A stretch of 10,339 nucleotides of DNA from the NCBI GenBank assembly GCA_027596195.1, contig JADGJG010000970.1, positions 1-10,339 on the forward strand, written 5' to 3'. The stretch comes from Podochytrium sp. JEL0797 (lineage: Eukaryota > Chytridiomycota > Chytridiomycetes > Chytridiales > Chytriomycetaceae). Under the pieces are notes generated by a model, which searched no databases, was not told the DNA's origin, and was given only the letters and a program-made list of their open reading frames with translations. Each line of letters begins with the position of its first letter. The first letter of the stretch is position 1. Shown here in pieces: positions 1,964 through 10,339 of the stretch. The position numbers were made by a program, and so were the translations under genes.

Positions 1964-3044
1964 TTAAAGCTCATGAGCGCGATCAGCTGCCCACAACTCC
2001 AAGCTCTCATACCTCCCTCTCGTAGGTTTCCCCAACAAACGAGCGTACCGTTTGCGAAGGTTCGTCTGACGCAAGCAGCATACCCCCACAAAGAACAGCG
2101 CGCACAGATTCACGAGCACAATCATGACAATGTAGCCCCACGACATGCTGCTGTTGGGCTGAGTCGATCCTGGAGTTTGGGTGCCGTGAATTTGGATCTG
2201 TAATCCGCGTGTTCAGAAAGGCGAATTGAAAACACGGCAAACACCCCACCTCATGCACCCCAATCTGACAAAACCCAATCTGAGGAGTAAACGTAAAAGT
2301 CGCCCCGACAATCCCAGTAAACGTCTCCTCTGTCGCTGACGACGAAAACCCGCAGATATCCCATGGAAGCGACACGTGCCCCCCAGACGCAGCGACTGTA
2401 TCCACCTGAGCTCTCGTGCAGAGGAGGAAGTTGGATACATCGACTGTGGTTCCGGAGGTTGTTTTGAAGGCCACGGTGTCGGTTTGGACTTTGGCTGCGT
2501 GGAGGCGAGGGGTTCAGCGTTTTGAGTGAGATGGATTCAAGGAGACTTACTGGATAAGTCGTAGAGGATGGAAATGCCGGAGATGGATTGAGGTGGTGCA
2601 GTGGCGGACCAGTCGATGGTGATGCTGTCAATTTGCATTCAGGGTACTGGGTACAGATCAAAATGCTGCAGTATCAAACTCACGTCTGCGGAGTACAAGA
2701 TCCGTCTGAATGAGAGTTTCGGGGTTAGTTTGAACTGCTGGATCGCCGATCCGGCTGAATACGGGGAAGAAGCGGGATCTCACTAACCCGAAAGCCATTC
2801 AGCCAAGTGAGTCGCTTGATCGTCGATGGTCGTCTGCTTGATGTTGTTGACGTCACACGACTGGTTGAAGCATTTGGAGGTGTTGGGGTTGGTGGAGGAG
2901 GCAGACAAGCGGGACTGCGAGACGAGCTCTTGGACAGACATTTTTTTACCCGGGCGATAACAAAAAAAAATTGTTTTTTAATCAAAAATAACGTGCTGTG
3001 CAAAGAGCTGCGCGGGATAACGCCCAGTTCAGCAATTTCGCCAT
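1964..3044 (-). CDS. Predicted single-pass (type I-like) membrane protein, 6 exons, family not recognised
   Basis: Exons on the minus strand are 3044-2993, 2928-2788, 2705-2684 (22 nt), 2624-2551, 2494-2250 and 2197-1964, giving about 255 residues. Every junction agrees in phase and has GT/AG ends; the acceptor of exon 3 has a good CTAAC branch site. The N-terminus MAKLLNWALSRAALCTA could be a weak signal peptide. The middle (KCFNQSCDV, DGSCTPQT, ITIDWSATAPP, LPWDICGF) looks extracellular, with scattered Cys. Near the C-terminus, WGYIVMIVLVNLCALFFVGV is a clear membrane helix. It is followed by a basic cytosolic tail (LRKRYARLLGKPTRGRYESL). I do not recognise the family. The first exon is the least certain; an alternative start is the ATG at 2941. 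The last exon has a decayed copy at the left edge of the window. Confidence 0.6.
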
Positions 3045-3401
3045 CAGATCACCAGGCAGGCTCGCGATTTGTGGAATGAAAACCACAGTTGTGAAATATG
3101 GAACACAATCAATCCGAGTCCTGCTCTCGCTCTCGCTTTCCTCCCCCACTTGTTGAAGCCAAGTCATGAACGGTTATGCCTGACAAAAACAACGAATCAG
3201 TACCACACACACGGGATAAAACCTGAATCATCCATATAATCCTCTCACTCGACTTTCCAAACCACGATAAACACATCCTCCTCCACGATACCCCCCTGAT
3301 AAACCCAGACAACACCTTCAAAAATAACCTCGCATGCTCCTCATTCGTTTGACAATGTTCCTCCGAAATGTCCAACAAATCGAGTTGATCCTCCGCATCC
3401 A
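3045..3401. other. Unresolved stretch between two genes
   Basis: A minus-strand frame of about 97 codons (3402-3109) begins MDAEDQLDLLDISEEH and looks protein-like up to a possible donor after WMIQ. It has no recognisable domain, and no downstream exon fits convincingly. The opposite strand here should hold the start of the GPATCH4-like gene, but I find no Trp-Gly G-patch core in it. I cannot assign this stretch. Confidence 0.3.
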
Positions 3402-4196
3402 CTGCGAACCGCGCAAGGAACCGTGGGTCTCAAAAACGACACGAAAGGGATCGGATCCGCGAGCAACGAATTCGGATTCAGCTGGTGGGACCACGTCTTC
3501 AACAAGGTCAGAGCTCTAAATCCGCCCTCCGACTTCCACTTTTGTTGAAACGAGATTCACAAATTCAGGTGAGTTTTTAAAATCAAAATCTGCAAAGAAG
3601 ACGACGGCGAAATCCAAGTCAAAGTCGATCGTGACAGCAAAACGGTCAAGTCCCTTCTCTATGGCAGTTTCAAGGAGAAGACCACGAGGAAAAAGAGTAC
3701 AGCATCAAACTAACCGACAAAGAACTCTTCATTGCGTGTGAAGGCCGCACAGCACGGAAAGGTGCGCGGTCCGAGCAACCTGGGAAACTCCTGCGCGCGA
3801 CCAAAAAGCATACCGAGAGACCTGGTTGCCAAGAGCAAGAAGGAGAAGGAAAAGAAGGAAGAGAAGCGGAAGTCTCGGGACGAGGCTGTGGTGGTCGAGG
3901 AGGAGGAGCCCGTCAAGAAATCCAAAAAACGGAAGAGTAAGAATGGGGACGATGATGGGGAGGTGACGCGGCAAGTCAAGAAGAGTAAGAAGTGCAAGAA
4001 TGTGGATGTGGAGGAGCCAGCACGGGAGGACACGGTCGAGCCCAAGAAGAAGTTAAAGCGCGCAGACACCACCACCACAGCCGAAACCGACAAGGAATCC
4101 GCCAAACCCAAAAAGAAGAAGAGCAAGAAGGAATCCACCGACACGACTGCAACTCCCGAACGCAAAAAGAAATCCAAGAAGGCCGAACACGAATAA
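3402..4196 (+). CDS. GPATCH4-like nucleolar protein, frame disrupted, 5' end unresolved
   Basis: Recognisable segments in order are PLRTAQ...VGLKNDTKGIGS (end of a G-patch), FGFSWWDHVFNK, SLLYGSFKEK, LTDKELFIACEGRTARKGAR, GKLLRA, then a long Lys/Glu-rich tail ending KKKSKKAEHE and TAA. The order and the CEGRTAxKxAR motif match GPATCH4, a nucleolar G-patch protein; G-patches usually bind and stimulate DEAH helicases. A likely 62-nt intron spans 3507-3568. The pieces lie in different frames. The shifts coincide with T5 at 3574-3578, A5 at 3690-3694 and A5 at 3803-3807, so they are either indel errors or decay. For the last shift, an intron from about 3761 to 3818 is an alternative. The core with the GW-x-x-G-x-GLG motif is not visible upstream, so the gene may be truncated. 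The poly(A) hexamer overlaps the stop. Confidence 0.55.
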
Positions 4197-4197
4197 A
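4192..4197 (+). terminator. AATAAA overlapping the GPATCH4-like stop codon
   Basis: The hexamer contains the TAA stop at 4194-4196. It could act as the poly(A) signal if the 3' UTR is very short. Confidence 0.3.
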
Positions 4198-4216
4198 AGC
4201 GCCTGGTAAACTCGAT

Positions 4217-4222
4217 TTTATT
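4217..4222 (-). terminator. Poly(A) signal of the COX7A-like gene
   Basis: AATAAA on the minus strand, about 74 nt past the TAA at 4296. It lies close to the 3' end of the convergent GPATCH4-like gene. Confidence 0.5.
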
Positions 4223-4295
4223 TTGTTCGAATTCGTGAGGACGCGAAAGAGGAAATATCGAAATCCAGCTAATATGAAGTCGCAAGACATCGCAT

Positions 4296-4692
4296 TTACT
4301 TCTTCTGTAAGCCTGTAATTTAGTAACGGCTTCTGTCCAGATCGAACTCACCTCCTTCAGAATGTGGTTCTTGGACGAGTAAAGCGCTCCGGCAAACGAA
4401 ACAGCCACACATCCAGCCGTGAGTCCGAACCAAAGGCCGTCGTACTTTCTGCGGACGTAGGTGGGGATGTTCGAGTCTTGCTGTTGGGTTCCAAAGATGG
4501 GACGTCAGAAGACGGTTTCCAGTTGCGTGATATCATGCACAAACCTGCCAGAATTTGCGGAGGTTCAATTCCTTAGCTCTGAGGGCGACCTATCGGTGCG
4601 GGGGCTGTGGTTAGGACAGTGATGAGAGATCGAGCGAGAGCGGAGGTTTGACACACTTCACCGATGCCGAAGATGGACTTTCCAAGAGACAT
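4296..4692 (-). CDS. Small COX7A-like mitochondrial inner-membrane protein, 3 exons
   Basis: Exons on the minus strand are 4692-4590, 4476-4352 and 4304-4296, with introns of 113 and 47 nt. Phases agree and the product is about 78 residues. It starts MSLGKSIFGIGEV and continues DSNIPTYVRRKYDGLWFGL, then a single membrane helix TAGCVAVSFAGALYSS, and a basic end HILKEKK. The xDxxIPxY-(R/K)-x-K-x-DG stretch followed by one helix and a Lys-Lys end resembles cytochrome c oxidase subunit 7A, a nuclear-encoded single-helix subunit. The resemblance is modest. The acceptor at 4477 is uncertain; CAG at 4480-4482 is an alternative site but breaks phase. The ATG is directly preceded by a pyrimidine tract and CAG. 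Confidence 0.5.
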
Positions 4693-4712
4693 CTGTGATG
4701 GAAAAAAGAGTT
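4693..4712 (-). promoter_or_regulatory. 3' splice-site-like signal immediately before the COX7A-like ATG
   Basis: Minus strand: a CTAAC branch-site sequence overlaps the TAA stop of the upstream gene. A pyrimidine tract and CAG then abut the ATG at 4692. This is the layout expected of a cis intron in the 5' UTR or of a trans-splice acceptor. Confidence 0.45.
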
Positions 4713-5305
4713 AGTCCTCGCAACGAAAGGGATCGCTGAGGTGCGGGCAGGAGTCCTCGAGGCAGGCGGGAGCCTCACTTTTGCAGTTTTAAAAAAATTT
4801 CACTCGCATTTTGGAACGACCAGCAAAAATTCCTCGTCGTTTTCTTATATCCTACTGGCCGGAACTTACTCGCAGTCCACAATGTGATAGATCTGATCCT
4901 CCTCAAGAAGGAAAAGGAGCGAAAAAACGCGGAATTAGATGTCATGAAAATATTCTTGTACTCGACCAAAACGCGATTACAAGGTGAATACTCACTTCGT
5001 AATTCATTGAGCTCACCAACTGCTGTCCAACAGCAATGAAAGAACTGGCGTTTTTTTTATATGAAAGTGTGCGTTTCCAATTGTTCGTAAAACAGCCCCA
5101 CACCGCGACTTCCTTGATCTTGTGCCCCAATCCAACAGCCGGCATCAACGGTTTGATAAACAATCCAATGGACCCCAGAGTTGGAAGATAGTTCAAATCT
5201 GTCCTCTTTGAGACTCCTTCCGTCCCTGCTCGCGGACGCGTTGTTCATCTGTCCATGCTGCTCACTCCTGCCACCATGATCTTCGTCAGGTTCTTGCTGC
5301 TGAAG
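4711..5305 (-). CDS. Unidentified protein, five small 3' exons (5' part unresolved)
   Basis: Exons on the minus strand are 5305-5266, 5198-5110, 5022-4996, 4901-4870 and 4777-4711, with GT/AG ends and consistent phases throughout, and a TAA stop. The product reads LQQQEPDEDHGGRN, then LNYLPTLGSIGLFIKPLMPA, VGLGHKIKE, QLVSSMNYE and EDQIYHIVDCD. It ends EAPACLEDSCPHLSDPFRC plus ED. The tail has four regularly spaced Cys. I do not recognise the family. Upstream candidates are the segment GGEAEITPACE near 5400-5430, after a pyrimidine-rich acceptor, and a likely start MDALVAATLASTRPIEEG at 5694. The latter reaches the frame NDLIERIKRAPYISTYPRGDQ only if one base is added to the C4 run at 5641-5644. 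The donor at 4869 (GA|GTAAGT) could instead splice to 4692, giving a different C-terminus. Confidence 0.45.
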
Positions 5306-5856
5306 CTGTCAATTCCGAATCGAGATTGTGCTCAACCCCGAGTTTTCAAACTGGTGTGGAAATAGTAGGGCTTCCAAGTCGGATGGGAACGGAACCTCAC
5401 ACGCAGGGGTGATTTCCGCTTCTCCTCCCTGCAAGAGCAAAGCAGCAGGTTCTGCAGTCGTTGTGTCAAGATAATTGTGCGAGAATATCTTGATGGATGG
5501 ATGGAAGGATTGAGGTTTCGCTTTCGGTGAGGTGGTCCAGTGGTTCCAAAAGAAGTCCGCTGGTTGGTTCCCGACTTGATCCCCTCTTGGATATGTGGAT
5601 ATGTAAGGAGCGCGCTTGATTCTCTCAATCAAATCGTTCTCCCCTCCTCGATGGGCCGGGTGGAGGCGAGAGTTGCAGCGACAAGAGCGTCCATTTCGGT
5701 TGTGACTAAGAGAGCTGTTCGCGCCAGTGGAATAAGACAATATCGCGTTTGCAAAGAACAGTTTTCTTTTTTTGTTTCGCGCATGGAGAGAGTGGCCGAA
5801 AAGTTTCCTTTGTTCAGCGTAATACAGCACATCTCGCATCATCCCAACGCGTCAGA
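5306..5856. other. Probable 5' exons of the minus-strand gene and a divergent promoter region
   Basis: Minus-strand frames stay open from 5842 to 5309 and include protein-like pieces, but I cannot fix the exon borders. The gap between the candidate start at 5694 and the plus-strand ATG at 5857 is about 160 bases and must carry the divergent promoters. I see no clear TATA box. Confidence 0.35.
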
Positions 5857-7445
5857 ATGTCGACCAGCGATAAGAAAGCCAATCGAACCTCCAAGTTTGA
5901 TTTCTCTCAATCTGCCCGTATGTTCCCCAATCGCCCCATTTTACCCCGCTCGCGTTAACGCAAGCCACCTCAGCCACCCACTTCACCTGCGAGACCGAAA
6001 TCGCCGCCTACATCAACTGGATCAACACGCAACTCCTCCAAGACGCTGACCTCGTGAACGTGCTTCCCATCTCCGCCACGAAACCCAACGCACTTTTTAA
6101 TGCCTGTGGAGACGGAATCCTTCTCTACCACCTAGTCATCAACAGTGTTCCTGGGACGATTCCTGAAAAGAAAATCATCAAGATGGTCAAGACTGTGATT
6201 GACAAGTTTGAAAACAATCAAAGCGCGCTCGCTGGGGCTGTCAAGATTGGGGTCCATGTGCACAATTTGTCGGCGGAAGATATCATGAAGGGGACTCCTC
6301 ACTTGGTTTTGGGGTTGGTGTGGCAAGTGATCAAGGTAAAAACAAACGCCGGAATTGCGACGTCGCCGGCTGAACGAGTTTTCTCCAAAAAAAAACAGAC
6401 CTTTTGCAAAACGTTGCCACAAGTGGAACCGAGTCCTCCAATACCTCCGCAAACGATATTGTCTCTAAAGCCGAACCTGCCACCCAATCCCTTGAAAAGG
6501 CGCTCCTCAAATGGGTCAACGCGACCCTCAAAAAACAAAACCTCCAACTCCGTGTCACCAACTTTGGGTGCGACCTCAGCGACAGTGTCGCCTTGAGCCT
6601 CTTGATTTCCATCTTTGACGAAAATACCAACGAGCCCCAACCCATCTTGCAGGAACCGGATTTGAGCAAACGTGCTGAGCTTGTTCTTGATTATGCACAA
6701 AAATTTGATTGTAGACACTTTGCCTCTGCAGCGGATATCGTGAATGGAAACAAGAACTTGAGCTTGGCGTTCATGGCCGTGTTGCTCAACTTGAAAGTGT
6801 CGCGCGACAAGGCGCAGGAAGTTCGAATTCAGTTGGAAGGCGCCAAGGATACGGCCGAAGCGGCTTTGTTGCGTGTGCATTCGTCCAAGGAGTTGGAGAC
6901 CAAGAAGCTTCGTCTGCAACTCGAGGATGCTAAAGAGGAAATTGAGCGGCTGCGCAACGATCGCGATAATTTGCAAAACGATCTTGAAGCGCTGAGGGCT
7001 CAAGCGGAGGAGCAGGAAGCCGTCTATGAAGAAAACAATCAATTGATCAACAGTATGGCAGACGCGCAGAAGGAACTTGAGCAGTCCCGTCAAGTGAACG
7101 AGCATGTGTCTGCGAGTGTGGAATCTCCCTCCATTTCCAAATCGCACACACGCGACCCATTTTTGATTACGGCCGAACTTGAAAAACACCCTAAAGGCCA
7201 TCAGCACGGCCATTTTCAAGGACAGGATAACAGGCGAAAGTATAATTGCCATTTTCAGTGGGGGCGGAGGTAGGCTGGGCGGCGGGGAGAAAACAAGTCT
7301 GGCGGGAACCAACACCAAAGTCATTGCATTGTTACTTTTTTTCAAAACCTTCTTCTCTGCCTTTTTGTTTCAAGAAAAATATCTACCTCTTTAAGATGTT
7401 GCAATTGCTCTCAAACATGAAGGTGTGAAAAAAGATTGGAAATGA
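5857..7445 (+). CDS. Fimbrin/plastin-type tandem calponin-homology protein with a coiled-coil tail
   Basis: Exons are 5857-5917, 5965-6335, about 6434-7115 and 7396-7445, giving roughly 387 residues. CH1 (about 30-144) contains NALFNACGDGILLYHLVINSV, PGTIPEKKI, NLSAEDIMKGTPHLVLGLVW. CH2 (about 165-275) contains ALLKWVNATL, VTNFGCDLSDS, KRAELVLDYAQKFDCRHF and ADIVNGNKNLSLAF. These match the first actin-binding domain of fimbrin/plastin. Residues about 276-371 form a heptad-like, Glu/Lys/Leu-rich coiled coil, and the end is VAIALKHEGVKKDWK. Fimbrins carry four CH domains and EF hands; this protein has two CH domains and no EF hand. It probably bundles or links actin as a dimer. Two uncertainties: the acceptor before exon 3 (a better CAG at 6398 breaks phase by one base next to T4 at 6402-6405), and the last intron, which is a repeat copy. 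Without that splice the frame ends at 7273. Confidence 0.75.
7116..7395 (-). repeat. Repeat copy 1, filling the last intron of the CH gene
   Basis: From about 7122 to 7378 this matches the two copies to the right. Shared parts on the minus strand are the hairpin leader near 7362-7377, the ATG-CAA start at 7329, the CCCGCCAGACTTG block and a block near 7130-7160 that corresponds to the VCEIFQ region. The frame is dead: a stop follows two codons after the aligned ATG. The match begins within about 10 nt of the inferred donor (GTGTGG at 7116) and ends within about 20 nt of the acceptor at 7395. Confidence 0.7.
7362..7377. repeat. Hairpin of repeat copy 1
   Basis: An imperfect inverted repeat, TTTTTG-TTT-CAAGAAA, at the same place as the hairpins of copies 2 and 3. 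Confidence 0.55.
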
Positions 7446-7648
7446 TCTTGTTGCAAGCAAACTCCAACTCCTCCACCATCAGCCCTCCTCTGCAGGCGAG
7501 AATATTCTTGAGGCACCGCGTTTTGTCGCGTCGTACCAGTGTGCGCGAGGAAGGAGGGGGGAAAAGATTTTTAATTTTAAAACTACGACATTAAGTAAAA
7601 AAAAATACACATCGCTTGTTAGTCAACTTTTCTCTCCACTGGAAAATC
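7446..7648. other. Intergenic stretch
   Basis: AT- and homopolymer-rich sequence between the end of the CH gene and repeat copy 2. No gene is supported. GTTAGT at 7618 just left of copy 2 resembles a splice donor. Confidence 0.4.
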
Positions 7649-7876
7649 TCACACACCCGTCCCATTGTTGATGAAGGCCAGACTCGACACGCCCAACAAG
7701 TAACCCTCAACACCCGTAATAAGGCAATCAGGCCAGCGAACCAAAATTACAAGGAAAAATGGTTCAAAGATGTCTTCAAAGTATGCCAGTTCTTCGGCGG
7801 GGACGGGGGTAGGCTGGGCGGCGGCGGGGGGGAACAAGTCTGGCGGGAGGCCAACACCCGAGTCGCTGCGTTGCAT
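7649..7876 (-). pseudogene. Repeat copy 2: truncated, frame-disrupted relative of the 8136-8567 protein
   Basis: From the aligned ATG the product starts MQRSDSGVGLPPDLFPP, against MQRRDFCVGLPQDLFPP in copy 3, and ends at a stop after 75 residues. Downstream in another frame, RVWPSSTMGRVCEIFQW aligns with RVWSLVRCAYEIFQR of copy 3, so the original frame was longer and has been shifted. The repeat itself runs from about 7625 to 7920. It could also be a distinct short member of the family. Confidence 0.6.
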
Positions 7877-7896
7877 TTCGTACTTTTTTTGGAAAC

Positions 7897-7913
7897 TTTC
7901 TTGTTTCAAGAAA
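7897..7913. repeat. Hairpin of repeat copy 2
   Basis: A perfect 7-bp inverted repeat with a 3-nt loop, TTTCTTG-TTT-CAAGAAA, about 20 nt upstream of the minus-strand ATG at 7876. Confidence 0.8.
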
Positions 7914-7920
7914 AGAAAAC

Positions 7921-8135
7921 TGCGGCGCATGGCAGCCTCGACAAGGCGTTGCAATATCATCTAGGTAGATATTTTGTGTTTCATTCCAAATCTCTATCAC
8001 ATTGATATTGCTGAATTAAAAAATCCGCGAAACGCGCGTTCCCCATCCCCTTTGATGAACTAAATCAAGGCTCTTAAAACATTTTTTGTGTAGGAAGGAA
8101 AATATATTTCATTTGATAAGGGCTTGGGATTCCCT
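7921..8135. other. Intergenic stretch
   Basis: Lies between repeat copies 2 and 3. GCATGGCAG near 7930 resembles a splice acceptor just outside copy 2. No gene is supported. Confidence 0.4.
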
Positions 8136-8567
8136 TCACGCCAAGAAAAACAAGGAATGCTTCACGAGCCCTGCAACAAACTCCGAAACTCCCTCCCAAA
8201 CCAAACGCAAAACACTCCATCGCGTTTCCACAAACGTCTTTCCCCGCTGAAAAATCTCATACGCGCACCTCACCAGCGACCACACCCTGGCTTCACACAG
8301 CATCGATGCAAACCCATACACTCCAAAAGCAATCAACACAACCGTCATTGAGCGTGCGCAAACAATGAACGCTGCCATGGCGAAGGTAAAAGCAACGACG
8401 GCAGCAACAAGAGACGCGGCACAAGGGACAAGCGCGGGCAGCGCGAGAACGAGGGTTACGAGGCGAGCTGGGAAGGATATTGGATCTTGGGCGGGGGCGT
8501 GTATATGCTGAATGTCGGGGGGAAACAAGTCTTGCGGGAGGCCAACACAAAAGTCGCGACGTTGCAT
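8136..8567 (-). CDS. Repeat copy 3: intact 143-residue predicted membrane protein, family not recognised
   Basis: A single uninterrupted frame starts MQRRDFCVGLPQDLFPP, the sequence shared with copy 2, and ends HSLFFLA and TGA. Residues 34-70 (LVTLVLALPALVPCAASLVA and on) and 74-92 (MTVVLIAFGVYGFASML) are strongly hydrophobic, so two or three membrane helices are likely. The C-terminal half is amphipathic and basic/aromatic (CAYEIFQRGKTFVETRW, VWEGVSEFVAGL). The start is placed at 8567 because all three copies align at this ATG and a conserved leader with a hairpin precedes it; an in-frame upstream ATG at 8636 is possible. The family is not known to me. Because it is the undamaged member of a local three-copy set, it is the best candidate for the source or functional copy. 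Confidence 0.55.
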   Translation of the reverse strand: MQRRDFCVGLPQDLFPPDIQHIHAPAQDPISFPARLVTLVLALPALVPCAASLVAAVVAFTFAMAAFIVCARSMTVVLIAFGVYGFASMLCEARVWSLVRCAYEIFQRGKTFVETRWSVLRLVWEGVSEFVAGLVKHSLFFLA

Positions 8568-8588
8568 GGTTCCTTTCTTTTGGAAAAT

Positions 8589-8608
8589 CTTTCTTGGCTT
8601 CAAGAAAG
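8589..8608. repeat. Hairpin of repeat copy 3
   Basis: A perfect 8-bp inverted repeat with a 4-nt loop, CTTTCTTG-GCTT-CAAGAAAG, about 20 nt upstream of the minus-strand ATG at 8567. Confidence 0.8.
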
Positions 8609-8730
8609 GTACAGTAACTGCAGTAATTGTCAACAAGGTTTATTCAACTGCTCTAAAAGAATTTTGCCAAAGGGTGTGTTAGGTGGTGTTTTTTGGCTAG
8701 TCAAAATTCACTTACCTCGGGGGACGGGGG

Positions 8731-9412
8731 ATGGGCAAGTTCAGCTCGCGGGTTCTACGAATCAAATGCGAATCAAGCAGACAAACCTCGTCTTCAGCCA
8801 CATCCTCCCCTCCCCCCTTAATAACCTGACACCTCTTCATTTTCAAGAACTTGCCAAACTCGAGCACCTTGCGGCCACCGCCACTACAGCCCTTTCGATC
8901 CTACAGGAAACACGGGCGATCCGTTGTGGAACACGCGTTCGGCAGATTTGGAGTCTGGGCCGGAATATGCGTGCGCGCATCCTCGGCGTTCGCAGGCGGT
9001 TTCGACGGGGATGGAGGTCGGAGAGGTCGGATTCTTTGTGGTGGGGGTTGAGGGTTTGAACGGGTTTGGGGTAATGGCGGGGGAGGGGCTGCCATTCTTT
9101 AGCAGGTGGTAAGTTTGGCAGAGGAACAGCGGCAAAAAGTGGTTTCTTTCTGTCACGAATGCTACAGTCGCACCGAGGGAGTGCTTCCTGTATGATTCGA
9201 CTGCCAGGGGATGTCTGGACACGATGCTGGCGTGAGTTTTCCCTATCCCTTTTTTCCTCTCCCTGGCTTCTTCTCTGAAACACTTGTCTAGTCTCACTCC
9301 CAACGGCGCCCTGTGTCCCGTGTGTCGACACCGCATCCTCTCATCGCTGCACAGAAACAAGGACCACCCGATTGACGAAGACCTGCGGAGAGTGTCCGAA
9401 CTGCAACAATAG
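8731..9412 (+). CDS. Spliced protein with a RING-like CPxC end, 4 exons
   Basis: Proposed exons are 8731-8789, 8848-9105, 9178-9231 and 9292-9412, in consistent phase, giving about 163 residues. It starts MGKFSSRVLRIKCESSRQ, continues TCQTRAPCGHRHYSPFDP, a Gly/Val-rich middle (VGFFVVGVEGLNGFGV), then GCLDTMLALTPNGALCPVCR and a helical tail ending RRVSELQQ. CLDxxL followed ten residues later by CPVCR resembles the second half of a RING finger, but the first zinc-ligand pairs are not in the usual place. If the inferred second intron is retained in another frame, it contains FCHEC, which could supply the missing pair. The intron 9232-9291 (GTGAGT, strong pyrimidine tract) is the most secure junction; the second intron is the weakest. 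Confidence 0.4.

Positions 9413-10236: not shown

Positions 10237-10339
<103 letters not shown>

Follow-up and report, generated by a model that had tools for sequence, protein, structure and literature searches.

Tandem multigene families evolve by birth and death, and MITEs and Helitrons can take the form of short repeats that carry a palindrome close to one of their ends. Duplications in yeast (PMC2518615) and chimeric genes at deletions and duplications (PMC5463148) are the subjects of two papers. The window analysed in this work is contig C968 (10,339 bases) of the 24.4-Mb, 995-contig assembly of the chytrid Podochytrium sp. JEL0797. Its central feature, a group of three related copies, is real and of an ordinary kind, most probably an orphan tandem family that has been duplicated with its neighbourhood and is decaying. 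Adjacent homologous copies in one orientation, by which a tandem family is recognized, are present; so is a stretch of several genes that matches a second locus of this assembly in unchanged order, by which a segmental duplication is recognized.

The locus resembles birth-and-death families in its adjacent same-strand copies, its mixture of intact and dead members and the partial homogenization of two of them (A and C, below), and differs in that the protein belongs to no recognized family, in that the six copies found lie in two clusters and in that a leader shows about the same degree of conservation as the N-terminal codons. It shares with segmental duplications and their junction chimeras a duplicated block, abrupt junctions and a truncated gene fused to a neighbour; it differs from them in that the chimera takes its tail from the opposite strand of a gene copy next to it, and in that the duplicate is old (dS 0.38) and strongly condensed. 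With MITEs and Helitrons the locus has in common that its repeats are short and have a palindrome close to one side, but paired termini and dispersed copies were not found, and by eye no shared CTRR-type end follows the palindrome.

Results

Three related copies in the window

The copies c1 (7126-7378), c2 (about 7600-7923) and c3 (about 8136-8680) are all minus-strand copies with the same orientation and consist of the following parts (copy A belongs to a second cluster, on contig C690).

7126..7329, minus strand: c1, a dead copy reading ATG CAA TGA at ATG 7329
7330..7378, minus strand: c1 leader, a degenerate palindrome and an A-rich stretch
7600..7714, minus strand: c2 3' block, 80% identical to C690 copy A
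7649..7876, minus strand: c2 ORF, truncated, 75 aa from ATGCAA (ATG 7876) plus stop
7877..7923, minus strand: c2 leader, palindrome and A-rich stretch
8136..8567, minus strand: c3 ORF, intact, 143 aa from ATGCAA (ATG 8567) plus stop
8568..8608, minus strand: c3 leader, a palindrome with perfect 8-bp arms and an A-rich stretch

Self-comparison of the window by blastn aligned c1 with c2 at 77% over 110 nt (E 6e-19) and, at their other end, at 75% over 57 nt (E 4e-8), c2 with c3 at 77% over 128 nt (E 3e-20), and c1 with c3 at 73% over 89 nt (E 2e-9). In local alignment the pairs score 98, 102 and 62, compared with maxima of 31, 35 and 30 among 500 dinucleotide shuffles each, so that the relatedness of three copies in the same orientation, as originally predicted, goes far beyond chance. 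The blocks common to the copies are those listed in that prediction: an imperfect palindrome, an A-rich leader, ATGCAA, a CCCGCCAGACTTG-like block, a Pro-rich segment and a GTGTGAGATTTT-like block. As a direct pair, the 3' blocks of c2 and c3 match weakly (30 nt, E 0.022 by blastn); their similarity becomes clear via the C690 copies.

The division into one intact, one truncated and one dead copy likewise held. The c3 protein has a Pro-rich N-terminus, a long hydrophobic middle and a more polar C-terminus. Copy c2 has lost most of the hydrophobic middle and retains leader, N-terminus and 3' block, the last in a frame that differs from that of its N-terminal part and overlapping the end of the truncated ORF; counted from an in-frame ATG further upstream, 103 of its codons are open. 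The middle is also missing from c1, whose 3' end is cut at a deletion junction at 7126.

A second cluster on C690

A search of the whole genome, proposed beforehand as the way to tell local duplication from mobility, was made with five queries (c3 DNA, c3 protein, c1-c2 DNA, C690 copy-A protein and C690 cluster DNA). Matches lay on C968 and C690 only, at least 2, 3, 6, 7 and 8 of them, the counts of matches and of copies being lower bounds. Those on C690 fall at 42.3-43.9 kb, except for a single match of 32 nt (44192-44223), which is a short repeat adjoining the cluster, and define three copies.

C690 42322-42729, minus strand: copy A, an intact frame of 136 codons
C690 about 43.2-43.5 kb: copy B, partial
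C690 about 43.6-43.9 kb: copy C, with the middle deleted

The proteins of A and c3 are 33% identical. The 3' block of c1 is nearest to A (53/65, vs 46/65 for c2, 38/61 for C and 32/62 for c3), and homology between C and c3 continues past the palindrome into the upstream flank for a further 59 columns at 81%, the homology of the c3 leader to the flank of C running on to 8680. Since the c1 3' block is nearest to A and the upstream flank of c3 matches C, the copies appear older than the split of the clusters. In the 5' block, A and C agree with each other (104/114) better than either does with a window copy, so that any pairing of copies across clusters is uncertain, and block trees were too weak to pair them (support 59, 60 and 67 for the 5' block, 73 and 47 for the 3' block). 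Gene conversion, or separate amplification within each cluster, could possibly explain the closeness of A and C. Two short stretches between A and B (32 nt at 94%, 28 nt at 89%) recur upstream of C, which would suit a tandem unit that extends beyond the gene.

The original prediction had left open a small mobile element beside a locally amplified gene family. A hairpin-led non-autonomous element of MITE or Helitron type, inserted three times, would account for the repetition of a unit that has a palindrome on one side and for the common orientation of the copies. Against such an element, the genome search found no copies beyond the two clusters (as lower bounds); the palindrome is confined to one end, and the longest inverted match between parts of a unit is 9 nt (units of c2, c3, A and C); flank homology continues beyond the palindrome; and c3 is an intact ORF with an intact counterpart, A, on C690. 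With no paired inverted termini in these four units, no dispersed copies among the matches found and flank shared past the palindrome, the mobile element was rejected as highly improbable, and local gene amplification, with a second three-copy cluster on C690, is supported.

A condensed copy of the neighbourhood

The window cluster lies within a longer stretch that matches C690 in the same order and that also contains a calponin-homology (CH) domain gene and a 46-nt scrap of the adenylosuccinate lyase gene (ADSL). Between about 2.0 and 8.7 kb the window reproduces the C131/C690 region in condensed form, in the same order and orientation and with blocks missing.

2024-3419: matches C131:17.1-18.5 kb
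3421-5062: matches C690:15.4-17.2 kb, partly also the end of C131
5094-5601: matches C690:34.0-34.5 kb
5603..5648, minus strand: ADSL scrap of 46 nt, 96% identical to C690:37472-37517
5648..7127, plus strand: 5' part of the CH-domain gene, 86% identical to C690:38930-40473, cut at the edge of c1
7126-8680, minus strand: copies c1-c3

Identity to C131/C690 is 76-96% outside the copies and 70-83% within them, the junctions are abrupt, and the gaps between the window matches correspond to about 34 kb of C131/C690. C690 has tandem arrays at 19.7-31.4 kb, and part of the gap sequence may be an insertion on that contig. The segment C690:37472-37517 falls within a match to the ADSL C-terminal domain (C690:37394-37636), and in the case of the broken ADSL and CH genes it is the window that has lost sequence. 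Window 624-1725 matches a further contig, C374.

A different origin of C968 has to be weighed here, namely that it derives from another, related organism present in the culture or from the other subgenome of a hybrid, and not from duplication. This would agree with a same-order match across much of the window at 76-96% outside the copies. In the assembly, however, three contigs carry the Rpb2 domain and ADSL_C occurs at a single place, which is the pattern of one genome; three Rpb2-domain loci are expected for RNA polymerases I-III, and these two low-copy controls, a small sample of two families, give no sign of a second, mixed-in genome. The 46-nt ADSL scrap and the truncated CH gene are also unlike a normal orthologous locus, and we regard the foreign or subgenomic origin as unlikely. 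Duplication within one genome is the reading followed below.

Several other features of these contigs were recorded. C131 and C690 share an overlap of 8.2 kb at 96%, together with two shorter pieces at 90-92%, as two haplotypes or a recent duplication would. On C690, 19667-25584 and 25776-31394 are tandem duplications (95% over 3 kb, and three units of ~1.5 kb at 73-75%), and 6160-7666 is a long array of shifted self-matches in steps of about 126 nt, a tandem repeat that is possibly coding. Within the window, 62-154 and 2049-2142 form a direct repeat (95 columns, 83%), a further sign of local duplication, the second copy lying inside a short ORF that looks membrane-like by eye. Runs of C at 7-32 and of G at 1740-1756 are perhaps hard-to-sequence tracts. 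The plus-strand reading of 9160-9412 ends in CPVCRHRILSSLHRNKDHPIDEDLRRVSELQQ (by eye), which suggests a zinc-finger-type gene beside c3. The last 103 nt (10237-10339), which look like histone H2B, have matches at 94-99% on four further contigs, on one of which the match spans just 59 nt, and the contig end at 10339 is perhaps an assembly break at a repeated gene.

The CH gene and its antisense-derived tail

At 7126/7127 the CH frame is fused to antisense c1, which adds one feature on the opposite strand to the copies.

7127..7273, plus strand: C-terminal tail of HDU98_012201, 48 aa of 420, antisense through c1

The last 59 residues of HDU98_012201, a hypothetical protein of Podochytrium sp. 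JEL0797, agree with the reading frame of the window. The locus suggests that this protein is a shortened and fused paralogue of the CH gene that C690 has in longer form. By eye, both parent sequences have TCTCTC at the junction where the window has TCTCCC, and the junction is compatible with a microhomology-mediated deletion. Between window and C690 the CH pieces differ by a dS of 0.38 and a dN of 0.04 (dN/dS 0.10, 335 codons). With the protein of Chytriomyces sp. MP71 as outgroup, 10 of 11 polarized amino-acid changes fall on the window branch and one on that of C690 (12 more were not polarized), and on account of this excess the window CH copy looks relaxed.

A predicted orphan protein under seemingly weak constraint

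The original prediction knew of no named family that would fit, and our searches bear this out. Pfam gave no match to c3, c2 or A at E 0.1; NCBIfam gave none to A or c2, and two rows for c3 that lie far below cut-off (E 0.062 and 0.9); among PDB sequences A had no match at E 1; and in a protein-database search, which needs shared 5-residue words, c3 had no match at E 1 and the alignment of c3 with A none at E 10. Common to c3 and A is the N-terminal pattern MQRxDxxVGxPxDxFPP. Hydropathy windows of 19 residues reaching at least 1.6 start at positions 32-60 in A and at 29-69 and 73-75 in c3, from which the family protein would have two or three membrane helices; an AlphaFold model is mostly helical and of low confidence (mean pLDDT 54, pTM 0.27).

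Considering that dN/dS between A and c3 is 0.79 and that their differences are spread almost equally over the codon positions (51, 53 and 56), constraint on the protein appears weak. The same figures would suit neutral debris of a single former gene, in which c3 and A are open by chance, as would the failure to find homologues of, or a database entry for, c3. Yet in neutral, substitution-only simulations a frame stayed free of stops in just 1.4-3.6% of 20,000 runs (each of six settings), a DNA alignment made without regard to frame gives coding gaps of 3 and 12 nt for A against c3, and leader and N-terminus are well kept in c2, c3, A and C. We consider neutral debris a minor possibility, to be kept in mind beside a family that would encode a membrane protein.

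The common leader

The leader (45 nt before the ATG) was compared with the first 51 coding nt in the six pairs formed by c2, c3, A and C. Leader identities range from 35/39 to 43/45 and those of the coding stretch from 43/51 to 46/48, raw figures that are favoured by free end gaps and for which C was taken one base off. In five of the six pairs the leader is at least as conserved as the N-terminal stretch, the exception being c2/C (36/39 vs 46/48). Leader and first 17 codons are the best-kept part of four of the six copies (c2, c3, A and C); the copies agree less well in the 3' block (98/152 for c3/A, for example), and in c1 and B the leader is degenerate. By eye, TTCNNGAA is found upstream in all six copies. 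The common leader, with its TTCNNGAA palindrome and A-rich stretch, suggests a control site for expression, and a recent gene conversion between A and C could account for part of its conservation. In a promoter site of the heat-shock-element type, the functional unit is an array of alternating GAA/TTC units, whereas TTCNNGAA in the copies amounts to two units only.

What had been called a hairpin is an imperfect palindrome in the sequence. Among the five leaders folded as RNA (c1, c2, c3, A and C), only that of c3 beats its shuffles (z -3.8, 0/200); the corresponding counts are 30/200 for c2, 161/200 for c1, 114/200 for A and 49/200 for C. An RNA hairpin as a common feature was rejected accordingly, and Rfam gave 0 matches at gathering scores.

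The exact degenerate palindrome pattern occurs three times in the genome (A, C and c2; control 0) and does not fit c1, c3 or B. With matches all within the family and none in the control, the palindrome was rejected as a genome-wide promoter element. Allowing up to two mismatches, the palindrome of A has five matches (A, C, c2, C507 with one mismatch and C84 with two) and the reversed control one, so a few further sites outside the family (C507, C84) are possible.

Discussion

Taken together, we hold it quite probable that an old tandem family of orphan small membrane proteins was duplicated with its neighbourhood and that the window cluster is decaying by deletion. In the order of events that we infer, a lineage-restricted, fast-evolving family, whose product would be a membrane protein of about 140 aa, would have multiplied by tandem duplication beside the CH-domain gene, probably before a longer chromosome stretch was duplicated. 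The window would be the decaying duplicate, from which deletions took out large blocks; one of these deletions would have joined the truncated CH gene to c1, and c3 would have stayed open while c2 and c1 lost the hydrophobic middle. A more far-reaching proposal, in which the orphan membrane family works in both clusters, selection on its leader equals or exceeds that on the protein and the antisense-tailed CH chimera is expressed and functional, seems to us distinctly unlikely.

The interest of the locus is modest and lies in its orphan protein, its well-kept leader and its antisense-tailed chimera. It offers a case, dated by a dS of 0.38 in the linked CH gene, of an orphan family multiplying and dying within one small fungal genome, and likewise of how a deletion can create a chimeric gene with an antisense-derived tail.
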